DNA of 64,000 nt from Chthoniobacteraceae bacterium. GTDB taxonomy: Bacteria > Verrucomicrobiota > Verrucomicrobiia > Chthoniobacterales > Chthoniobacteraceae. Every line of letters starts with the position of its first letter. The first letter of the stretch is position 1. Where the stretch lies: assembly GCA_028293625.1 (NCBI GenBank), contig JAQGOL010000042.1, positions 186,001 through 250,000 on the forward strand. Direction: 5' to 3'. This document shows, one piece after another, positions 52,395-64,000 of the stretch. The position numbers and the translations under genes were made by a program. The notes beneath the pieces were generated by a model. That model was not told the DNA's origin and searched no databases. It saw only the letters and a list, made by a program, of their open reading frames with translations.

Positions 52395-53939
52395 TCAGTC
52401 GGTAAAGACGCTCCGATTCAAATCGCGGAGCCGGTAAACGCGCAGGCCGGGATGCAGATAAATCATGGTGCCGCGTTCGCGTTCCCACATCAATTCGCCA
52501 TCGCGGAAAAGCTCTTCGTAAAAGCTTTTGCGCTGTTCGAAGCTTTCGGCTTCGCTTTTTTGCGGACGCAACCCTTGGAGGAAGAATTTCCCGTAATCGG
52601 TTTCAGAAACCATGACGTGGGTGACGCCTTTGGCGCGGAGTTCCGATATTGAACCGAGATCGGCGGCGAAATGCGCGGCGAGAATCTTCTGCGGAACACG
52701 CGCGATCCGATCCGCATGTTTCTTTTTTCCCGGAACAGGGAGGCCAACGCGGTTATCTTTGGCAATGACGGCGGTGGGCGGCAGGGTTTCGTTAATCCAG
52801 GCGATCAGCTCTTTGACATCATCGTGCTGAAACGCGACGTCATATCGCAACAAACCGGCCCGGCTCGCGCTCCAGCCGGTTATTTGGAATACAATCAGTA
52901 ACAAGGCGCCTGCCGCCAAAACGACGTTGCGCCTCACGCAGCCAAGGAGCAAATGCGCGGAATCCTCAATGCCCAGCACGGCCAGAAGAGTGAATAACGC
53001 GGAGGCGGGAAGAAAATAGCGGTCGTTTGATTTTGGCGAGAACGACAAGATCAATGCGTAAGCAAAAGGAAACAGGATGACAGCCCACTCCGGCGGTGTA
53101 ATCGCGAATCGTTCCCGCCAGCGCGAATATAAAAAGACGCCAAGCAGGAGCCAGATGGCGGGAGTGGAGTTATCGAGGAAAACGCTCCAGTACTGCGAAT
53201 GAGGAACTCGGCGGGTCATTCCTTTCTGCCCTTCGACCACGAAGTTGATCTCGCGGCCCAGGCTTTTTTCAAACACTCCAAGATCCATCAGGAGCGGCAA
53301 ATTAATCAGGATCAACGCCATGACGAGTCCGATGAAAAAAAGACCCGTGCTCCACGGGCAGCGGCGTTTCCACAAAACCGGGGCGGCCACCGCCAGCGAG
53401 AGCACCCCAAGGTATTTGCCCGAAATGGCCAGCGCGCAGGCGATCCCAAGAAATGCCGCCCGCTTCCAGGATGGAGCCTGCCAATAGAGGGCCGCCGCCA
53501 GGAACGTAAGCGCGAGCCCCATGAGCATCGCCGAATCCTCCTTCATATAGTGGGCCAGTTCGTAAAATTGATGGTGCAGCCCAAGCACGGCTCCCGCGGT
53601 GAACGCCCCGGGCCACCCGCGCCAAATAAAGGCCAGCAGCGAAAAAGAGACGACAGCCACGGCAGTGAAAATCGCCGAGACCAGGCGGCCCTTTTCCACC
53701 ACCTTCTGTTGGGTGTGCGGTGTTTTTGCGATGGCGACCGCCAGCTTGGTTGTGCTGAGCAAAAGCATCGGATGATGGAAATTCCATTTGCCCGAAATCA
53801 CCTGCTCCACCTTGCCGGGTTCGTCCGGGTGGTAATGATACGGGAAATTGTTGTGCCGCGTATGCAGGATGAGACAGCCCGCAAAAAGGGCCACGCACCA
53901 GAGCGCCAAAAGCGCGTTTTGAACAAACCGTTCGCTCAC
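52395..53939 (-). CDS. GT39/ArnT-like polytopic membrane glycosyltransferase
   Basis: This 514-residue protein has about ten membrane helices. The first periplasmic loop carries YHYHPDEPGKVEQV (acidic pair at 39-40), the DE/DD position used by GT-C enzymes to bind the lipid-phosphate sugar donor. A soluble C-terminal periplasmic part covers about 390-514. It lies 4 bp downstream of a second GT-C-like gene. It probably transfers a sugar from a polyprenyl-phosphate donor to a surface glycan or protein; the exact donor and acceptor are unknown. The family call rests on topology and the acidic motif. Confidence 0.75.
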   Translation of the reverse strand: MSERFVQNALLALWCVALFAGCLILHTRHNNFPYHYHPDEPGKVEQVISGKWNFHHPMLLLSTTKLAVAIAKTPHTQQKVVEKGRLVSAIFTAVAVVSFSLLAFIWRGWPGAFTAGAVLGLHHQFYELAHYMKEDSAMLMGLALTFLAAALYWQAPSWKRAAFLGIACALAISGKYLGVLSLAVAAPVLWKRRCPWSTGLFFIGLVMALILINLPLLMDLGVFEKSLGREINFVVEGQKGMTRRVPHSQYWSVFLDNSTPAIWLLLGVFLYSRWRERFAITPPEWAVILFPFAYALILSFSPKSNDRYFLPASALFTLLAVLGIEDSAHLLLGCVRRNVVLAAGALLLIVFQITGWSASRAGLLRYDVAFQHDDVKELIAWINETLPPTAVIAKDNRVGLPVPGKKKHADRIARVPQKILAAHFAADLGSISELRAKGVTHVMVSETDYGKFFLQGLRPQKSEAESFEQRKSFYEELFRDGELMWERERGTMIYLHPGLRVYRLRDLNRSVFTD

Positions 53940-53943
53940 AATA

Positions 53944-55506
53944 TTAAGCCTGGCGTTGCGGTTTGAACCAGCCGGTCACCAGGGAAACGAGAAAATCGGC
54001 GGGAACCGCAAGCAGCGGCACAAGGACCGGCCAGGCGGCGCCGAAATAACGCGGGTTAATCTGGGAAACCAGGAAAACGCCCAGGAGATAGCTGAGGGCA
54101 ACAACCATCCAGACGCCGTAAGTGGCACGGTATTGAGGGAGCAAAGCAAGAAGGAATGCCGCCAGCAGCCACCAGCCGAGCGGCGTTGGCCGAGCTGCGG
54201 TAATCTTTCGATCCTCGCTCTGCCCGTTTGGCAATCGCACCAGCTCGGAGACATTCTCAAATCCTTGTACATACGCCTGCAGGGTGTGGGCAGCCCAGCC
54301 GTTCGGTGCCGGGGAAATCCGCTTTTGAAATTCCGAATACGGCGGCAGCGGACCTTTTTTCGGCAACGCGAAAAGCATCCGCAGCGGGGAGCGCTCCTTA
54401 CTCTGCGATTCCTCGTAAAAATGCTCAAACTTATCAACGTAATTTTGTCCCTGGAAACGGATGTCCTTAAATTGGGAAGGATTTGCGGAGCCGACCAGGC
54501 GTTGCACGGCAAAGTAGAGAAAGTTGGCGGGCTCCGCCTTGATTCCTTCAATGGCGAGATCCATAAAAAGACGCGACTTGCGAGGCACGTCGGTTTGGAG
54601 CGTTTTCCAAAGGGGCCGTTCCTCCTGAAGGCCTGGATTTTCCAGGAACGCAAAAGGCCAGTCGTCGTTTAAGTAATAGACACCCAGATTGCGATGGAGC
54701 GGTTCGACATCGCCGCGAATTTCAGCCTTGAAATCCGCATGTTTGGGCGACTCAAGCTGAGTGAGCGGGAAAGTGGCGACATACAAGAGCCAGGCGCCCT
54801 GTTTTTTCGAGCCAACGGTGAGAGTCACGATCATCAGAACGCCAATTGCCGCAAAACGCGTCCAATCGAGCCTGCGCCATGCGCCTGCCAGCACCAGGCC
54901 GACCACGATTCCCGGCCAGACAAAGCGGCCGGAAGGTTTGGTGAGAATAAAAAGCGTGAACGGGATGAAAAAGCACCAAAAGAGCCGGCGCGACCGGGTC
55001 AGGTCTGGTTCGCGCACCCACGCCACCCAGCCCGCGAATGTCCAAAGTAATGTTGCGAAGAAAATATTCTCCCCGAGCAGTTCGTGTTCATACCAAAGGA
55101 CCATCGGCATCCCCGCGTAAATCAACGTGACGGGGATCACCCAAAGCTTCCAGCCGGGGAGTGTTTTTCGCACCAGATATGCGAGCGGTACGAGCGTCAG
55201 CAGCCCGATGCCATGTTGAATCCAGGCCAGCCAGCGCAACGGTTCGCCGGGGAGCGCCGCGATCGGAAGTAAAAAAATCGGATAAAGAAAGCGCCGTTTC
55301 TCATCCAGGCTCACATAACCCTGGGAAAGGAGCTTGTGCGCGAAGCTGAAATACGAGCGCGAATCGCTTCCCCAATACGCGTACGGCATGTAGCTCAAAA
55401 GCAGGAGCCGCAACGCTGCACCGATCAAAATGGCGGGTATTGCCCAGAGCAACGCATCGCGCAGTGACGGGTGACGACGAAGAAACAAGCGCGCAGAGGC
55501 AAACAT
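53944..55506 (-). CDS. GT-C-type polytopic membrane protein (putative glycosyltransferase)
   Basis: This 520-residue protein has about nine to ten membrane helices. After the first helix (about 20-40) it has YAYWGSDSRSYF, with Asp48 in the GT-C acidic position. Near residues 137-147 it has LWYEHELLGEN, a motif also present in the divergent gene at 55708 (LWYEHTIMAE), so the two are paralogues. A periplasmic stretch lies at about 255-410. It is the first gene of the leftward pair. Donor and acceptor are not known. Confidence 0.7.
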   Translation of the reverse strand: MFASARLFLRRHPSLRDALLWAIPAILIGAALRLLLLSYMPYAYWGSDSRSYFSFAHKLLSQGYVSLDEKRRFLYPIFLLPIAALPGEPLRWLAWIQHGIGLLTLVPLAYLVRKTLPGWKLWVIPVTLIYAGMPMVLWYEHELLGENIFFATLLWTFAGWVAWVREPDLTRSRRLFWCFFIPFTLFILTKPSGRFVWPGIVVGLVLAGAWRRLDWTRFAAIGVLMIVTLTVGSKKQGAWLLYVATFPLTQLESPKHADFKAEIRGDVEPLHRNLGVYYLNDDWPFAFLENPGLQEERPLWKTLQTDVPRKSRLFMDLAIEGIKAEPANFLYFAVQRLVGSANPSQFKDIRFQGQNYVDKFEHFYEESQSKERSPLRMLFALPKKGPLPPYSEFQKRISPAPNGWAAHTLQAYVQGFENVSELVRLPNGQSEDRKITAARPTPLGWWLLAAFLLALLPQYRATYGVWMVVALSYLLGVFLVSQINPRYFGAAWPVLVPLLAVPADFLVSLVTGWFKPQRQA

Positions 55507-55707
55507 GGGCGGAGATTCTTAAAGGTGCTCCGAGGCGATGTCACGCTTCCGCAGATCCGAGGCGGGGTTTATGCGCGAATTTAAAGCCCGCAGGCAAAAA
55601 AGGCGCGCATCCCCTTTCCGGCAGGCGGGCGATCAGAGGAACTCGTCCACCCTTTCATCGATAAACCCTCTTCCCAAATCTGTGCCGCACGTTTTAATCG
55701 GCGCACT

Positions 55708-57258
55708 GTGTCCAGCCTTTCTGTCCCATTAAAATCCATCTGGCGCGATCCGCGCGTTCGCGAAATGCTGGGGTGGTGCCTGCCGGGCCTTCTGTTGGCC
55801 ATCACTCTGCGGATCGTGCTCATGTGGCAGATGCCGATGGCCGTTTACCACGATGATTCACCGGATTTTCTGACCACTCCGGACCGGCTTCTTTTTGAGC
55901 ACCGCTTCGAGCTGCATTCCAAAAAGACGTTCCTCACTCCGATTCTTTTCTCGGTTCCGTTTCTGCTTCACGTTCCCGCCCTGATTACCATACCGGTGTT
56001 TCAGCACGTCCTTGGCCTTCTGGTTGTACTCATGGTCGGGCTCCTTTGCCGGCTCTGGTTTACGCATTGGAAGCTCTTCATCGTGCCGCTTACCGTGATC
56101 GCCGCGGCCGACCCGTTCATGCTCTGGTACGAGCACACGATCATGGCGGAAACCCTTTTTCTCTTTTGCACACTCACGGTGGCAGTCGCCGGCACTCTGT
56201 ACGCGCTTAAACAATCCCCCGCTCGCTTTTATTTCCTTTGTCTCGCGCTGTTTTTAACCGCCGGAGCGCGTCCTGAAGGAAAGCTGCTCTTCGGCTTCGG
56301 GATTGTGTTCGTCGCATTCCTCCACTTTCGTACTTTCAGGGAATCGTGGCCACGCCTGGCAGCCATGATTCTCCTCGCCCTCACCACCCACTTGCTGACG
56401 GCCACCTCGCAAGCGGGGCTCCTGCTTTACACCTCCGTCGCACGGCTCACTCCGCATGACTTGAAATGCGCCCCGGGTTTTGAGCCATATATCGCTCCGA
56501 TCCGCGCCGATCTTCAAAGACGCTGGGATGAAAAGCCGTCGTTTCCGAAAGTCAATGACCGGCGAGCCATTGCCGAAGCGGTTCGCCTCTATCTTAGAAC
56601 CAATGTCGACGCCAAACGGGCCAAGCATAGTGGTGTCAACGACTTCTGCCTGAAGCTCGCCAAGGAGACTTGCCGGAAAAACCTCCTTCATCTGCCGGTT
56701 CACGCTTATGAAAAATTCCGGTTCTCCGCCAATGACTCTCCGAGCGGTTTGCTGGATGATGAATGGCTTTTTAGCCGCCAATACGCCGCTTATAACGACG
56801 AATCGGGCCGCGCCGTCCGACTCTCCCGCGGCCTGACTGGAATCACGTTGAACGCCGAGGCGGATTTCGAGCAATTTGTCGATACCCACTACGTTGAGTC
56901 GCATTGGTTTAATAGCCTGGCCGAACACTGGCTTGCCTTTGTCGACGCGTGGCGTTTGCCCGATGCCGTCTATCCCGATCTGGAAAAACCTTCGAAACCT
57001 TTCGTTTACCACGGTATCCCAGTTTATTTCCTGCTTGGCGCCGCGGGGCTGATTGCCGTCGCATTTCGCAGGGGCCCCGTGCAACCCTTTCATATCATCT
57101 GGGCACTCACCCTTTTCGGATTCTTTTTCACCATTATGCTCACCGCGAATATACGCCCTCGGTTCCGGTTTGTTTTTGAACCATTCTGGTTTCTTTACAT
57201 CGCTCTCCTGATTGAAACCATCTGCCTGGGCATCCAAGCGAGCTTCCGACGCCCATGA
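55708..57258 (+). CDS. GT-C-type polytopic membrane protein (paralogue of the 53944 gene)
   Basis: This 516-residue protein starts at a GTG. It has about ten helices, with the acidic motif VYHDDSPDFL at 47-55 after the first helix. The shared FMLWYEHTIMAETLFLFC is near 137-154. A large periplasmic region at about 245-405 is rich in charged residues and has Cys257 and Cys residues near 310-320. It is divergent from its paralogue across a 201-bp region in which I see no gene, and overlaps the next gene (ATGA). It may glycosylate a surface polymer or protein; specificity is unknown. Confidence 0.7.
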   Translation: MSSLSVPLKSIWRDPRVREMLGWCLPGLLLAITLRIVLMWQMPMAVYHDDSPDFLTTPDRLLFEHRFELHSKKTFLTPILFSVPFLLHVPALITIPVFQHVLGLLVVLMVGLLCRLWFTHWKLFIVPLTVIAAADPFMLWYEHTIMAETLFLFCTLTVAVAGTLYALKQSPARFYFLCLALFLTAGARPEGKLLFGFGIVFVAFLHFRTFRESWPRLAAMILLALTTHLLTATSQAGLLLYTSVARLTPHDLKCAPGFEPYIAPIRADLQRRWDEKPSFPKVNDRRAIAEAVRLYLRTNVDAKRAKHSGVNDFCLKLAKETCRKNLLHLPVHAYEKFRFSANDSPSGLLDDEWLFSRQYAAYNDESGRAVRLSRGLTGITLNAEADFEQFVDTHYVESHWFNSLAEHWLAFVDAWRLPDAVYPDLEKPSKPFVYHGIPVYFLLGAAGLIAVAFRRGPVQPFHIIWALTLFGFFFTIMLTANIRPRFRFVFEPFWFLYIALLIETICLGIQASFRRP

Positions 57259-59333
57259 ATCTTCCTGAAACCAGTTCCCCTGACCCCTCCCCCGTTTCCC
57301 TCAACGATTCCCCGCGGCAGTCGTCCTCGCGTTGCTGCGGCAGTTCGTTGAAAACGAAGCTCTTCGCCATTTCCCTGGTCCTGCTTGGGTTTGCTGTCGG
57401 CGCTCTTTTTCTTCAACCACCCGGCTTCGGCGACGACCTCACCTACTGGAATTTCGCGTTTAATCTTCATCGCGTTGGATTGGACGCCTGGCATCTCCAC
57501 AGCTTCCATGACCTGCGCTGGCCGGTCTGGGGCGTCTGCTGGCTGCTGCAAAAGCTCTTTCACTTCGGGTTCGCCTCATATTTTGGCGAGCCGCTCCTTT
57601 ATCTGGCGGCGGGCGCTCTTCTCAGCTTCCTTTTCGGAAAAAAAATCACGGGATCGCTCTGGGCCGGGTGGTCGTGCGGCGTGGCATTTCTTTTTCATCC
57701 GCTTCTCGACACGGTGGCCTACCGGCCGATGCCTGATTTATCGGAAGGAGTTTGGGGTGCCTGCGTCATACTTGGCTGGTGGGCAATGATGAATGCGCCA
57801 GGCCGGTCGCGCAGCCTTCTCTTTGCGGTGTTGACCGGCATAAGCGTTTACATAGCGGAATCAAACCGGATAACCGGAGTGTTCATCATTCCGGTATTGA
57901 TTGTTTGCACCTTGATGGAATTTCGCACCCGATTCCACTGGCTGCTCATTGCCGGCGGCGTCGCGGCTCTTTTCTACGGCGCGGAAGCGCTCTTCTATCA
58001 CGGCCTCTTCGGGGACTGGCTGCATAACATTCATGCCAACCTCGGAAACAAAGGGGCGAAAGGAACCGGCTCTATCGCCCTGTGGCGGTTGCCGCTTCGT
58101 TTTATGCCTTCGCTTTGGAAGGGCTCACTGCTTGCTCCCGCTTACTGTCTGCTTGCGCTGTTGGGCAGCTGGCTTGTGCTGCGCCATCGTTTTCCCTGGA
58201 GCGCCGCGCGGCTTGACGATGGCGTTTCACCCGTGGCCCCAAACACCGGTGCGCGCGCGCTCGGCCGGGTCACCTTTGTTTGGTTTGCCACCCTCTATCT
58301 GGAATACTCCTGCGCGCCGCAGGGATTTAAGGGCGGCTGGAATCCGATGATCCGCGATGCTGACCGGTTCCTTTGCGGACTCGTTGTTCCAATGTCGATC
58401 CTCGCGGTCCTGGGGTTGGTGGCGTTCTTCCGTTTCGCCCGGCAATCGCGTCCGGCCGCAAGCTTGTCACGGAGCCCCGTGCTACTTGCCGTTGCCGGGA
58501 TTGCGGTTCTGATTGCCTGCACCGCCCGGGAAACATTCGACAGCGGTTTCATTCCAAAAATGCGGCGTTATATGGCGGCGCTTCCCCCCGGCACCAAAAT
58601 TTTCACCCACGATTCGATGCGTGGCATCGCCTATCTCGTTGACCCGGTCGCAGCGGATAAACTGGTTTGGAACGCGGAGAACTCGATCCTGAACCGCGAG
58701 CCGCAACTTGAAACACTCGCCGCCCAATCCGATGAGTTTTGGTATGTCCGCAAACTTGTCTGGCTGAACACGCGAAAGAGACTCCAGAAGTCGGGCATCG
58801 CCGAGCAGGAACAGCTTGGGAGCTATTTTGAAGAGCCCGATCGCAATTGGATTACCACAAACCTACTTGCCAAGGGCGATACACCCGATTTGATCTTTCT
58901 ACGGCGCCGCACGCCGGCCGATCCCCTTCCAAAAATTCTTCCCTCAACGGCGCCGGAGTTCAACGGCTTGATTCCCGTCCTTCCCGCGATCTGGACAAGA
59001 ACGGGAAATCAACCCCAGCACGCCGAGACAATCCATTGGCCCGTGCCGCAATCGTTGCGCGGGCAATTCGTGCGAATTGAACTCGAAGCTGCGGCAAAGC
59101 ACGTTGAAGCGCTCGTGATTCGGCTCCAGTTCTTCAACGGCAAAAAACTGCGCGCTGAATATCTTCTCAAGCCCTACTTTCATCCCCAGCCCGGCAAGGA
59201 ATTTTTCGCATTCGAGATCCCGTCTGATGCTGATACGTGCGAAATCCAGCCGCGCTTTTCAAAGGAAGCGGCAACCATCTCAGTTACCAGCTTCCGCGCC
59301 GTGATTACCGCGCCACCAACGGCCACCAGATGA
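57255..59333 (+). CDS. GT-C-type polytopic membrane protein with periplasmic C-terminal domain
   Basis: The ATG of this 692-residue gene overlaps the upstream stop. The N-terminal tail (about 1-33) is Ser/Pro-rich and cytoplasmic. About ten helices follow (about 36-425), with GFGDDLTYWNFA (Asp60-Asp61) in the first periplasmic loop at the GT-C acidic position. The C-terminal 260 residues are hydrophilic and probably periplasmic, ending in a beta-rich part. It is convergent with the tandem-repeat protein gene 39 bp downstream. Family placement rests on topology and the acidic motif. Confidence 0.7.
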   Translation: MNLPETSSPDPSPVSLNDSPRQSSSRCCGSSLKTKLFAISLVLLGFAVGALFLQPPGFGDDLTYWNFAFNLHRVGLDAWHLHSFHDLRWPVWGVCWLLQKLFHFGFASYFGEPLLYLAAGALLSFLFGKKITGSLWAGWSCGVAFLFHPLLDTVAYRPMPDLSEGVWGACVILGWWAMMNAPGRSRSLLFAVLTGISVYIAESNRITGVFIIPVLIVCTLMEFRTRFHWLLIAGGVAALFYGAEALFYHGLFGDWLHNIHANLGNKGAKGTGSIALWRLPLRFMPSLWKGSLLAPAYCLLALLGSWLVLRHRFPWSAARLDDGVSPVAPNTGARALGRVTFVWFATLYLEYSCAPQGFKGGWNPMIRDADRFLCGLVVPMSILAVLGLVAFFRFARQSRPAASLSRSPVLLAVAGIAVLIACTARETFDSGFIPKMRRYMAALPPGTKIFTHDSMRGIAYLVDPVAADKLVWNAENSILNREPQLETLAAQSDEFWYVRKLVWLNTRKRLQKSGIAEQEQLGSYFEEPDRNWITTNLLAKGDTPDLIFLRRRTPADPLPKILPSTAPEFNGLIPVLPAIWTRTGNQPQHAETIHWPVPQSLRGQFVRIELEAAAKHVEALVIRLQFFNGKKLRAEYLLKPYFHPQPGKEFFAFEIPSDADTCEIQPRFSKEAATISVTSFRAVITAPPTATR

Positions 59334-59372: not shown

Positions 59373-61544
59373 TTACTTGCCCGCAGGCTCCCTGATCGGC
59401 CACCCTTCTTTGAATACCCGTATCACCCGGCCTTTCGAAAAACCTTCAGGCAATACTTCAGGCTCAATGATCCAGCGAACTCCGCTGCTTCCGTAGGTGC
59501 CGCCACTGTTTCCTTCGGGTAAATGCCCGCCGTAAGCCATCTTAACCGGGTTCGCCCCCTCGGCCGATAACGCGTCGTCCGCGAGCATCACAAACACACT
59601 TTTTCCGTTTGGGTCGCCGTCCAGCACGGATGCGAACTCCTTCCGGTCGCCTGAAAAAAAGTGGATCGTCAGCTTTTTGCCTTCCACTGACTCTATCCAG
59701 GCGGGCAAACCGTGTTCCCTTAGAAAGGTGGTCATTTTGGCGCGTTGCGTCTCGGTTGCCTGCTTCATATCGTCACCCACCCATACCTCCAGACAACGGC
59801 CCCGATCCTTGCTCGTGCGGCCCGTTGAATTAACCAGCAACTCATCCCCAATTAAAAGAGCCCCGGGTTTTTCCAGGCTGCCGTTTTTTTGGATTCGAGT
59901 AGTGTCATCGAAAGCAAGTTCAAGGCGGCCGTAATCGGGCGGCCTCACCAGTTGCTCCTTTTCGTCTTTTACCGGCGCCATCTGGCGGGCGGCAATCAAC
60001 TTTCCCTGCTCCGCTTTGATTTCTTCAATCCGATAAGTGAGCTGACTGCCGGCGAGTTCGGTGAAAGCATCCATGATCACCGAAGCAACCGTAAAGGCGC
60101 CCTTTGCATCAGGATGCAGAAAAAACAGATAGCGCATTCCAAGAGGCGCATCCTGAAGATTCACCTCGGCATTGAGATACATGACCGAGCCAAAAGGAGG
60201 GAGCGTGAAGTTGATCAGTTCGCCGGTATAATCCGCGCGGAATTGTCCCGAGCGATGCGACGCGTCGATCTTCAGCAACTCGCCGCCGATCCGGTGTTCG
60301 GACATTTCCGGGGGAAACTCGCCCGGCTTTAGCTGATACCACGGCAGCGCTTCATTCGCAAAATCGGTCCTGAATGGATATTGATTGGCTTCGTAGCCGG
60401 TCCTTACTCCGAACACTTCGCTATAGAGCGATTCGCCAAATGGCATGTCCTGCAGAGGCCAGCCTTCCTTGAAGATGCGGACCACGCGGCCTTTGCGAAA
60501 GCCTTCAAGAAGCAGGTTTGGTTCAAGCACCCAGCATATGCCGGCGCAGCCGAAGTTGGCCACGGGCACGCTTTCAAACTCCAGCACCTTTGAGCCTTGC
60601 CCATCGACCGGCGGGTTATAGGTGCGCAGCTCCTCGTTCGCTACCACGGTGCGCACACGGCGTCCTTCGACTGCCCACTTGGCCGGATCGATCGCTTCCT
60701 CGCTCAAAAACGCACGCATTCCGGCCGGATCGCCAAAGAGCGTCACCGCCATCTTTTTCCCTTTCACATAATCAATCCACGCAGGAATGCCTCGGAACTT
60801 GAGAAATGCGTGATGTTTTTTGCGTTGCTGCTCGGTGACAAGACGATGGGTTTCTGTTCCCACCCAGATATCTGTGCAGAATCGCGCATCGTCGCGCGGC
60901 CCCGTGCCGTAATTAATCAGCAATGCATCTCCAACCACGAGATCATGCAGCTTCACCTGCCGCTCGCCTTTCCAAACACGGGTCTTGTCGCTAACCGGCA
61001 ACTCGATCTGATCGGCGTCCGCTGTATTCGCGGAAAGCTTTTGCCGGGTCACAACCAATCTATCGGCGTCGGTCTTTATTACATCGAGTCGATAGCTTAC
61101 CCCCTCGCCCGCAAGCATGCTATACTTGTCCCGAATCGCGGCAACCCGGGTAAAAGCGCCTTTTTGATCCTGGTAAAGGAAAAAGAAGTAGCGGTTTCCC
61201 AAAGGGAGATCGCGCAAGTCCGCTTCCGCATTGAGATAGCTGATAACGGCGAACGGCGTGAGGGTAAAATCGAGCAGATCGCCGGTCCCATTTACCCGGA
61301 ACTGGCCTGTGCGATGAATAAAATCGACTTCGAGAAGTTCACCGGCGACGCGGTTCTCAGTTCCAATCGGAGGAAACTCCCCGGGTTTCAGCTGATACCA
61401 GGAATGAGGTTCAGAGCCGGACGTGGTTGTAAACAAATCGGCCGCATCGGAAGCGAGCACATCGGCATCAATGCAAGCTGGCCAAATAAAGCCTCCTATC
61501 AATAAAGTGACCGACCATCGGACGGCAAAACACGCAAGATTCAT
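59373..61544 (-). CDS. Exported protein of two tandem ~320-residue copies, unknown function
   Basis: This 723-residue protein has a signal peptide (about 1-28). The rest consists of two homologous copies at about 49-372 and 402-720. Each begins with WYQLKPGEFPP (Trp49 and Trp402). Each then has a HRTGQFR/HRSGQFR-type segment, an aromatic strand (YFFFLY or YLFFLH), an IWVG/VWVG-type strand and a GIPAWIDYV/GLPAWIESV segment. Each ends in EGFRKGRVVRIFKEGWP or the equivalent at the C-terminus. I do not recognise the family. It lies 6 bp after the DUF1552 gene, so it is the third gene of that operon and likely works with it outside the cytoplasm. Confidence 0.75.
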   Translation of the reverse strand: MNLACFAVRWSVTLLIGGFIWPACIDADVLASDAADLFTTTSGSEPHSWYQLKPGEFPPIGTENRVAGELLEVDFIHRTGQFRVNGTGDLLDFTLTPFAVISYLNAEADLRDLPLGNRYFFFLYQDQKGAFTRVAAIRDKYSMLAGEGVSYRLDVIKTDADRLVVTRQKLSANTADADQIELPVSDKTRVWKGERQVKLHDLVVGDALLINYGTGPRDDARFCTDIWVGTETHRLVTEQQRKKHHAFLKFRGIPAWIDYVKGKKMAVTLFGDPAGMRAFLSEEAIDPAKWAVEGRRVRTVVANEELRTYNPPVDGQGSKVLEFESVPVANFGCAGICWVLEPNLLLEGFRKGRVVRIFKEGWPLQDMPFGESLYSEVFGVRTGYEANQYPFRTDFANEALPWYQLKPGEFPPEMSEHRIGGELLKIDASHRSGQFRADYTGELINFTLPPFGSVMYLNAEVNLQDAPLGMRYLFFLHPDAKGAFTVASVIMDAFTELAGSQLTYRIEEIKAEQGKLIAARQMAPVKDEKEQLVRPPDYGRLELAFDDTTRIQKNGSLEKPGALLIGDELLVNSTGRTSKDRGRCLEVWVGDDMKQATETQRAKMTTFLREHGLPAWIESVEGKKLTIHFFSGDRKEFASVLDGDPNGKSVFVMLADDALSAEGANPVKMAYGGHLPEGNSGGTYGSSGVRWIIEPEVLPEGFSKGRVIRVFKEGWPIREPAGK

Positions 61545-61550
61545 TCGCTC

Positions 61551-62933
61551 TTAGATCAGCTCCGAGACAGGTCCCAAGCTATCGACGAACTTCTCCGTGT
61601 TGACTTCCATTTTTTGGATCATGGTTAGCATGACGTTACTCAGCCGTGCCTTCTCATCCTTGGGCCGGCCGCAAAGGCTGCGCCACTCGTCGTAATCGAG
61701 GTTGTAAGACGGGACAAACGGCTGGTTATAGTCAATATGTTGCCCATGCTTGAGGCCGAGTCCGCGGCCGCCTGCGAGGAGAATCGGCAGATTGCTGTTT
61801 GAATGGCTGTGGCCGTAGCTCATTCCACTGCCAAAGAGAACCATGGTGCGATCAAGCAACGGCTCTCCTCCGTCGGTTTCGGTTTTGAGTTTATCGAGAA
61901 AATAAGCGAACTGCTGCATGATAAACGCATCGCTTTTGGCGAGGCGCCCGAGCACTTCCACATCGCCATTATGATGAGAAAGTTGGTGGCGCGACTGGGT
62001 AATTCCAATCTCGGGAATTGCCAATCCATTCCCTTCGCTGCCGCTCATATAGGTCACCACGCGCGTCGTATCGGTCCGCAACGCAAGGACGATGAGATCA
62101 TACATTGTCCGATAGTATTCCCCGGCTTGCGCCTTGGAGACGTTGCGATGAAAAGGGGCCGCGTCGACTTTGGGTTTCGGCACGTCAAGCCACGCATCAA
62201 GCCGCTCGGTTCGCTGCTCCACATCGCGCACCGAATGCAGGTATTCATCCAGCTTGGTCCGGTCGTCGGTTCCAAGGGCCGTTCGCAACGACTTCGCTTC
62301 ATCGAGCACCGCATCCAGAACGCTGCGCCGCTTATTCAGTGCCGCGCGTTGCGATGCCGCTCCACCCGCGGCCTCCCCGAACAGGCGGTCGAAGACATTC
62401 CGCGGATTCTCCTCGGCGGGAAGCGGCACGCCATCGTGGGAAAAGGCAAGCGTCGACGAGTTGTTCGGCTGCCCTGTGCCGGAACTGATGGAAAGTTCAA
62501 GTGAACCAAAACGCGTATGCTCGGAAGTAACCTCCGCCATCACCTGGTCGCATGAAATCGTATTGTTATATTGCCGGGCGCTTTGCGCGTCGATCTTCGC
62601 GCCGGTAAGCCAGGTATCCGCGCAGACATGCGCCTGGCCAAGTCCGTTTGGATGATGCAACCCGCTGAAAATGGTCAACTCCTCGCGATGCGCCTCCAAT
62701 GCTTTTAATGCCGGTGAAAACTCATAACCGCGTCCGGGCTTTGTCACCTGCCATGTCATGCCGTTGACTCCGTTTGGAATGTAAACAAAGACGCTGCGGC
62801 GAGGTTTCGCCACGGCGGCGGCCGCGCGCAGCGGGGTCATCGCATCAAGTAGCGGCAATGCCACCGTGGCGCCGAGTCCGCGAAGAAAATGACGCCGGGA
62901 AAGCAGCCAGCGCTGGGAAAGGATATGACTCAT
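61551..62933 (-). CDS. DUF1552 family Tat-exported protein
   Basis: The protein has 460 residues from the ATG at 62933, just after the stop of the DUF1592 gene (62959); a TTG at 62972 would overlap that gene. A twin-arginine signal LSRRHFLRGLGATVALPLLD is at about 11-30. The family features VFVYIPNGVNGMTWQV, IFSGLHHPNGLGQAHVCADT and the later FGSGMSYGHSHSNSNLPILL are present. DUF1552 proteins are found next to DUF1592-type cytochrome proteins in Planctomycetes, Verrucomicrobia and myxobacteria. Their reaction is not established. Periplasmic location is inferred. Confidence 0.92.
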   Translation of the reverse strand: MSHILSQRWLLSRRHFLRGLGATVALPLLDAMTPLRAAAAVAKPRRSVFVYIPNGVNGMTWQVTKPGRGYEFSPALKALEAHREELTIFSGLHHPNGLGQAHVCADTWLTGAKIDAQSARQYNNTISCDQVMAEVTSEHTRFGSLELSISSGTGQPNNSSTLAFSHDGVPLPAEENPRNVFDRLFGEAAGGAASQRAALNKRRSVLDAVLDEAKSLRTALGTDDRTKLDEYLHSVRDVEQRTERLDAWLDVPKPKVDAAPFHRNVSKAQAGEYYRTMYDLIVLALRTDTTRVVTYMSGSEGNGLAIPEIGITQSRHQLSHHNGDVEVLGRLAKSDAFIMQQFAYFLDKLKTETDGGEPLLDRTMVLFGSGMSYGHSHSNSNLPILLAGGRGLGLKHGQHIDYNQPFVPSYNLDYDEWRSLCGRPKDEKARLSNVMLTMIQKMEVNTEKFVDSLGPVSELI

Positions 62934-62958
62934 AGGTAAATAATAACGAGGACGGTTA

Positions 62959-64000
62959 CTACCGGCGTTCAAAGAGTTCGCTTAAAACCAACGCTTCAAC
63001 TAATGACGCCAGCCGGAACTCTTTGGTCTGCTCGGCAATCTGCTTAAGTTCCGCCCGATCGGCGAACGTCATCCCACGGCGCAACGCATACGTGGCAAGC
63101 TTTTCACTCAAAACAACGGCGAACTTGTTGATATCAGCCGCCATCAGTTTTTTCAGCTCGGCTGCATTGGCGAACCTGCGGCCATCGGGCAGTTCACCGC
63201 TTGCATCAAGCAAAGGGTTTTCACCCGCTCCATCGCGCACTACCTCCTCAATGCGCCAATGCCCGATCGCGTCGTAGTTTTCAAATGCAAGGCCAAGCGG
63301 GTCGATCTTACGATGGCACGCCGCGCAATTGGCATCATCACGATGCGCTTCGAGTTTGGACCGCAGCGAAGCCTTCGGTTGATTCGGCGCGCTTGTCTTG
63401 ATCGCAGGCACGTTGGCGGGCGGCGGCGGCGGCGCTTTGCCGACAATCGATTCCAGCACCCATTTGCCTCGATGCACAGGACGATGCCGGGTGCCATCCG
63501 ATGTCAAACTAAGGACAGACGCCTGGGAAAGGAGTCCGCCACGGTGATCTTCCGGTTTAAGCGTCACCCTGCGCATTGTTTCTCCGCTCACCCCTTCAAT
63601 GCCATAATGGCCCGCCAGCCGTTCATTTAGCATCGTCCAGTCCGATTCAAGGAATTCGCGCACGCCGAGATTGCGATCGAGCACTTCACGGAAAAAGGAG
63701 GTCGTTTCGCCCAGCATGCTTTTTTCCAGATAACCGTCGTAGTCAGGGTAAAGCTTTTTGTCGGGTTCGAACATGCCGACCCGCCGCAATTGTAGCCATT
63801 GCCGGGGGAACGAACCGGAGAATGCGCCCGCCTTCGGATCGTGCAGCATGCGGCGCACTTCGGAGAGCAATACGGCGGGCTGATGGAGCGTGCCCTGGCC
63901 TGCGAGTTCTTGAAGCTGCTCATCGGGCATCGTGCTCCAGAGAAAATAAGAGAGCCGCGATGCCAGTTCCCAATCGTTGAGACGCGCTGCCGGCGCATCG
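62959..64000 (-). CDS. DUF1592/DUF1588/DUF1585-type cytochrome protein (5' end beyond window)
   Basis: The frame is open to the window edge, with the N-terminus missing. The in-frame sequence before the internal ATG at 63930 reads LASRLSYFLWSTMPDEQL, the DUF1592 signature, so that ATG is not the start. RKWLQ-like segment FPRQWLQLRRVGMFEPDKKLYPDY follows, in pieces, and then LTSDGTRHRPVHRGKWVLE. CAACHRKIDPLGLAFENYD (a CXXCH heme-type motif of DUF1588/DUF1585) lies near 63320-63265. The missing part should hold further cytochrome and DUF1587/DUF1595 domains. It is followed by the DUF1552 and tandem-repeat genes as one operon. Confidence 0.9.
   Translation of the reverse strand, partial: DAPAARLNDWELASRLSYFLWSTMPDEQLQELAGQGTLHQPAVLLSEVRRMLHDPKAGAFSGSFPRQWLQLRRVGMFEPDKKLYPDYDGYLEKSMLGETTSFFREVLDRNLGVREFLESDWTMLNERLAGHYGIEGVSGETMRRVTLKPEDHRGGLLSQASVLSLTSDGTRHRPVHRGKWVLESIVGKAPPPPPANVPAIKTSAPNQPKASLRSKLEAHRDDANCAACHRKIDPLGLAFENYDAIGHWRIEEVVRDGAGENPLLDASGELPDGRRFANAAELKKLMAADINKFAVVLSEKLATYALRRGMTFADRAELKQIAEQTKEFRLASLVEALVLSELFERR

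Follow-up and report, generated by a model that had tools for sequence, protein, structure and literature searches.

The protein encoded at the centre of this analysis, from a window of 64,000 nucleotides (the whole stretch of DNA that was analysed), belongs to a genuine family that none of the searched libraries names. This family is very probably a dedicated third component of one branch of the DUF1592–DUF1552 modules, as follows from the split of DUF1552 genes by score: all 27 distinct high-scoring DUF1552 matches share a contig with a family gene (adjacent in 26 cases, 8.5 kb away in one), whereas none of the 137 distinct lower-scoring matches listed is, by coordinates, within 5 kb of such a gene. 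As the main reading of its function, with a probability of roughly 0.55, the third component would act as an exported non-catalytic docking or binding subunit with paired modules.

Linkage of the family to one DUF1552 branch

Most rows of the DUF1552 tree were fetched through the family itself; since such loci bias the tree, the test was repeated starting from DUF1552. In a search of 38 genomes with the window DUF1552 protein, 126 matches at E ≤ 1e-60 were found, 17 of which scored 447–1078 bits, the next score being 329. All 17 share a contig with a family gene, which is adjacent in 16 cases and 8.5 kb off in one (G018 contig 52); a partial match at a contig edge (G006 contig 49) is also accompanied by a family gene. 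The other 108 matches have no family gene within 5 kb, the nearest being located at 5.03 kb (G002 contig 17). Of the 17 genomes in which DUF1552 was matched, eight are devoid of family genes, and their matches do not exceed 329 bits. A search of 377 genomes of the phylum with a planctomycete DUF1552 protein gave 13 matches of at least 455 bits, all beside the family, and 30 matches of at most 240 bits, none of them beside a family gene. Three source-genome matches are present in both high-scoring sets and one match is shared by the low-scoring sets, giving 27 and 137 distinct matches, respectively; both searches cover matches at E ≤ 1e-60, and in the 377-genome search the four best candidates of each genome were scored; lower-scoring DUF1552 genes are consequently undercounted.

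In a rapidly built tree that covers 113 DUF1552 proteins, flagged by the program for long branches among the unlinked rows, 91 of the 93 linked proteins and L085 form one clade of 92 with an SH-aLRT support of 100. The linked rows outside the clade are L124 and L092; the L092 gene is located directly upstream of a clade member, and by coordinates the same is true of L124. L085 falls into the clade though it was labelled unlinked, its family gene being 2.4 kb away, beyond the linkage limit of 1.5 kb. At a few loci outside the listed matches, a non-clade DUF1552 gene is located only a few kb from a family gene: a second DUF1592–DUF1552 pair comes after the family gene in L105, L120 and L236, and in L045 the DUF1552 gene faces a short family member.

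Sampling through the family gave a corresponding picture. DUF1592 followed by DUF1552 was found upstream on the same strand at each of the 49 named loci whose upstream sequence reaches 4.5 kb or more, the other 31 of the 80 named loci being too short upstream to judge. DUF1552 lies within 300 bp of the family gene or overlaps it in 42 of these 49 loci, and 0.4–2.4 kb intervene in seven; an apparent absence of DUF1552 from five of the 49 was an artefact of the longest-ORF start rule, and the gene is present in all five. The order is kept in ten of ten full-length loci from eight genomes across the phylum, and the succession DUF1592 cytochrome, DUF1552, family gene recurs in Verrucomicrobiota and Planctomycetota. 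In 51 stretches taken from relatives and from genomes across the phylum (L034–L073 and L230–L240), DUF1552 is located at most 5 kb upstream of 61 of the 71 full-length members, and four members are at contig edges. An upstream DUF1552 is missing for six of the 67 full-length members clear of contig ends; for these six, the cytochrome gene is upstream in four (at 19 bp to 3.4 kb) and directly downstream in two. Of the 76 junctions with an overlap or a gap of up to 60 bp between DUF1552 and the family gene, a few of which come from the same contig present in two collections, 57 are 4-bp start–stop overlaps (41 ATGA and 16 GTGA). These overlaps point to coupled translation of DUF1552 and the family gene; in the window, the two genes are separated by 6 bp.

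The link to DUF1552 and DUF1592 is accordingly genuine and old, and among full-length members it is close to exclusive. The constant neighbourhood that the original prediction proposed to check is largely kept by these members and breaks down in a short subfamily, which is mostly found elsewhere. Six of the nine short members, which are without the last part, have neither DUF1552 nor DUF1592 upstream; the other three are located beside a full-length member, beside a cytochrome gene and at a contig edge, and a tenth listing was left out as a truncated full-length gene. Short proteins of about 320–365 aa, with the end of the third barrel missing and without upstream DUF1552/DUF1592, are encoded in L049, L053, L054, L056, L057 and L240; in L054, a cytochrome gene is located about 0.7 kb downstream.

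Over 67 operons, the distance matrix of the family agrees with that of DUF1552 (r = 0.958) and with that of the cytochrome (r = 0.942; p = 0.001, 999 permutations). This agreement comes largely from deep subgroups and therefore indicates joint inheritance rather than residue-level co-evolution; joint inheritance of the operon is by itself no proof of physical contact with DUF1552 or DUF1592.

Two other genes recur in these loci. A gene for a 23S rRNA intervening-sequence-type protein (PF05635) is located between DUF1592 and DUF1552 in 11 of the 12 loci carrying it (e.g., L069:4079-4453). A gene for a leucine-rich-repeat protein, possibly a further partner, was found at most 400 bp after the family gene in 23 of 35 cases from 32 loci (e.g., L074:1536-2807 and L034:528-1742).

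Window protein, its operon and the module as the family unit

The features of the window protein and of its partners are collected in Table 1. The reading frame of the window protein starts with ATG. Two copies of about 320 residues, sharing the opening WYQLKPGEFPP and the ending KGRVxRxFKEGWP, had been recognised by the original prediction and are recovered by alignment: residues 46–375 and 401–723 are 41% identical (136 of 329 columns; E = 1e-84, 246 bits), a similarity far above chance. The signal peptide proposed at the same time stands as a plausible hydrophobic N-terminus, judged by eye in the window protein and clearer in its relatives.

Table 1. Window protein, its copies and barrels, and the upstream partner genes (coordinates of the window)
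Feature	Coordinates	Strand	Basis
Probably exported protein of 723 aa with two family modules	59373..61544	-	ORF and translation; profile matches across both copies
Probable N-terminal export signal, about residues 1-31	61452..61544	-	Hydrophobic N-terminus by eye; relatives' N-termini clearer
Copy 1, residues 49-371, three predicted beta-barrels	60432..61400	-	Profile match 1-327; AlphaFold2
Copy 1, barrel 1, OB-like, nearest CusF in the window model	61119..61400	-	VIA
Copy 1, barrel 2	60861..61100	-	Strand order in AlphaFold2 model
Copy 1, end of long helix and barrel 3	60462..60794	-	AlphaFold2 model
Copy 2, residues 402-719	59388..60341	-	Profile match 1-322; 41% identical to copy 1
DUF1552 (HXXSHH) protein with twin-arginine-type signal	61551..62972	-	PF07586, E = 8e-96; HQLSHH motif
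PSCyt1-DUF1587-DUF1595-DUF1592-DUF1588-DUF1585 cytochrome, C-terminal part	62959..63999	-	Pfam; gene runs past the window edge

The stop codon of the DUF1552 gene occupies positions 61551–61553 and the ATG of the window gene begins at position 61544, which bears out the distance of 6 bp stated for the two genes. The DUF1552 protein consists of 473 aa with HQLSHH at residue 329, and its match to the TAT_signal model (E 0.0021) is below that model's cut-off; the HxxSHH motif is present in 106 of 122 long DUF1552 ORFs. The full DUF1592 cytochrome gene of the operon encodes 802 aa with two CxxCH motifs, the number found in 93 of 97 long DUF1592 ORFs, one motif being present in the remaining four. 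Because the same strand continues past the window edge, the window gene ends a run of five genes, namely, a DUF1549/DUF1553 cytochrome (974 aa), DUF1501 (484 aa), the DUF1592 cytochrome, DUF1552 and the window gene itself. In this run (L216:2374-12799), the two planctomycete cytochrome systems, one pairing DUF1549/1553 with DUF1501 and the other DUF1592 with DUF1552, are united on one strand. Among the 14 DUF1552 genes of the source genome, three are followed by a family gene. Elsewhere in the window, positions 52395–59333 contain four large genes, likely for membrane proteins; the Pfam search at E ≤ 1 gave a match to PMT_2 glycosyltransferases for one of them, chance-level matches only for another and none for the other two.

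Homologues were found in 20 of 147 genomes, the source genome included, all 20 belonging to one taxonomic family; a profile search across the phylum detected them in nine of 387 genomes (source counted) from five taxonomic families. In the named collection, 390 relatives were confirmed, and the best 80 of the 390, which resemble the query's subgroup and are 76–100% identical, belong to Verrucomicrobiota (55) and Planctomycetota (24), one being unassigned. A remote family match in G002 contig 8 (35923–36555; E 2.3e-13, profile positions 24–256) may represent a further subgroup.

The 40 stretches taken from relatives, a subset of the matches from the 147-genome search, contain together with the window 66 ORFs with 77 profile matches, and 59 of these ORFs carry one module. 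Since most relatives have one copy per protein, it is the single module that defines the family, and the fused pair is a subtype; the tandem layout, presented originally as the distinguishing trait, does not extend to the family as a whole. Besides the window, six loci of relatives (L036–L041) encode two-module proteins. One more, in the genome of another taxonomic family (G358 contig 58, L235), indicates that the fusion is not restricted to the window lineage. The six second copies of sufficient length to be placed form one group with a support of 99, and this separate grouping marks the fusion as old; the first copies fall outside it but form no single supported group themselves.

Paired modules are also encoded by two adjacent genes, and two to four family genes follow one another at 43 of the 80 named loci. 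For 76 genes from such rows, first and last positions require 7 changes on the tree, compared with about 25.7 when the labels are shuffled, and well-supported branches force at least 3 of these changes. The first and last genes thus tend to be old paralogues, which we read as selection for the module pair.

Predicted fold and candidate functions

No Pfam or NCBIfam family above the cut-off was found for the window protein. For 38 members, only weak matches to these libraries were obtained (best E 0.014 and 0.035, respectively), to small barrel families (CusF_Ec and KOW2_Spt5) and to unrelated families, and a search of PDB sequences with the family profile gave nothing significant, with one match at E 1.2. 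The absence of a described family, suspected from the beginning, is consistent with these Pfam, NCBIfam and PDB sequence searches, none of which gave a usable match. The partners DUF1552 and DUF1592 also had no usable match in a PDB search, and text searches of the literature on the domains brought up no description of the third gene. Among motifs, no ligand-binding, catalytic or heme motif that would support or exclude substrate binding was found in the family, and CxxCH is absent from all 196 family ORFs, a set that includes some duplicates. Five residues (E20, R29, R34, D122 and Q242 in single-copy numbering) are invariant in all 38 aligned rows and could be functional rather than structural.

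AlphaFold2 models were obtained for copy 1 of the window protein (pLDDT 77.6, pTM 0.78; below 50 pLDDT at residues 243–267) and for a single-copy Limnoglobus member (pLDDT 89.7, pTM 0.89). Modelling suggests that each module consists of three small beta-barrels with a long helix preceding the third. Profile matches of the first copies of L036, L037 and L041 skip the segment of barrel 2. Comparison of the barrels with each other by profile gave no similarity of the N-terminal or the middle barrel to the C-terminal one (E 0.52 and 0.23, respectively), and the match between the N-terminal and middle barrels came from overlapping slices. Barrel 3 of the single-copy model resembles Sen1-type and riboflavin-synthase-type barrels with Z 7–9.6; such middling values were set aside as a clue to function. 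Foldseek matches of the whole single-copy model to MHC chains were regarded as spurious (TM below 0.2, rmsd about 18).

According to the main reading, an exported protein of one or two predicted three-barrel OB-type modules would be translated together with DUF1552 and would be located outside the cytoplasmic membrane as a non-catalytic subunit. The barrel protein may hold DUF1552 and the di-heme DUF1592 cytochrome together in a putative complex, or it may present a ligand to both. One working pair would be made up of two modules, which the window protein contains as a fusion and for which many relatives have two neighbouring genes.

A ligand- or substrate-binding subunit, close to the partner proposed in the original prediction, is a rather unlikely alternative; here the barrels would bind an oligosaccharide or a small molecule and pass it to the DUF1552 and DUF1592 enzymes. 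OB-type barrels are frequently ligand binders, which counts for this alternative, as do sulfatase-type genes in nine of 121 clustered loci. A published survey of PSCyt genes ties them to carbohydrate use (PMC5615132). However, scanning 38 rows against Pfam revealed no carbohydrate-binding family, and the proteins structurally nearest to barrel 1 are binders of metals or nucleic acids.

The metal-binding relatives raise the possibility, improbable overall, of a metal or cofactor chaperone, in which a CusF-derived barrel would load copper or another cofactor into DUF1552 or the cytochrome. CusF is an exported periplasmic Cu/Ag chaperone (PF11604), and its OB-type fold matches barrel 1 of the window model with Z 8.4–8.8 over 69–72 residues, the best match being Cu(I)CusF (VIA Z 8.8, rmsd 2.1, 69 residues, 17% identity), while a silver chaperone gives Z 7.8. 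By profile comparison with 11 CusF domains, barrels 1 and 2 are weakly CusF-like (pairwise E 0.0004–0.0007, probability 26–35%, without a decoy control), and the Pfam model CusF_Ec matches two of 38 rows, with a best E of 0.16 that does not reach the cut-off, and is unlisted for the whole window protein at E ≤ 1. Against this, CusF ranks 49th for the better, single-copy model (Z 4.8, rmsd 4.4, 77 residues; the list is filled by barrel 3). The MxM motif of the CusF metal site is missing from all 38 barrel-1 rows, whereas the His and MxM columns are invariant across the 11 aligned CusF domains, and positions 26 and 60, where histidine is frequent in other subgroups, carry other residues in the window copies. 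Unlike CusF, a family member would have three barrels in each of its one or two modules, and its partner operon is fixed. Cold-shock barrels, including the tandem cold-shock domains of Unr, are nearly as similar (Z 6–7; Foldseek and VIA), and the likeness to CusF may therefore reflect the common OB fold only; from the cold-shock proteins themselves the family is set apart by an exported-type N-terminus, the lack of a sequence match (none of 38 rows scanned against Pfam gave a cold-shock family) and an operon of exported redox proteins.

Least of all would a passive protein of the outer surface or for stability, co-transcribed with the module without acting in it, be expected: an export signal without a recognised catalytic motif would suit it, but a link to one clade, start–stop overlaps and matching distances in two phyla would be difficult to account for if no function were shared.

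Known cytochrome systems and significance of the third gene

PSCyt3 genes usually adjoin a gene family of unknown function, which from the survey text we read as DUF1552; according to the same text, nothing is known about the function of PSCyt genes, those of the PSCyt3 type and their neighbours included, and its consulted parts mention no third family beside PSCyt3 genes (PMC5615132). The window operon shares with the PSCyt3/DUF1592–DUF1552 pairs the domains PSCyt1, DUF1587, DUF1595, DUF1592, DUF1588 and DUF1585, two CxxCH motifs and an HxxSHH-containing DUF1552, and differs from them by the extra gene, which accompanies one DUF1552 branch only (3 of 14 genes in the source genome).

A second point of comparison is Cbp2D of Cellvibrio japonicus, a secreted multi-domain cytochrome annotated with DUF1587, whose X183 heme domain reduces polysaccharide monooxygenases according to the consulted parts of its description (PMC8981238). 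DUF1587 is common to Cbp2D and the partner cytochrome rather than to the window family, and in those parts neither DUF1552 nor a third gene is described for Cbp2D. Taken together, the link of PSCyt genes to carbohydrates and the reduction of monooxygenases by the Cellvibrio heme domain make an oxidative role of the module in carbohydrate breakdown a reasonable guess.

PSCyt genes are abundant in some of these bacteria, and the third gene marks one DUF1552 branch almost perfectly. It thereby offers a handle on these systems, as it defines a subtype and predicts a complex, and named carriers, Limnoglobus roseus PX52 and Brevifollis gellanilyticus NBRC 108608, are available as targets. The work also provides a profile for a family missing from the Pfam and NCBIfam copies searched, and the short subfamily could reveal what the fold does alone. 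On a bolder and doubtful view, the family would be an unnamed exported three-barrel class, perhaps derived from CusF, whose members would serve in pairs as obligate subunits of an extracytoplasmic oxidoreductase with three parts, the di-heme DUF1592 cytochrome, DUF1552 and the barrel protein. If true, this would be a new type of enzyme degrading resistant organic matter in Verrucomicrobia and Planctomycetes, in which the barrel pair would set the target.
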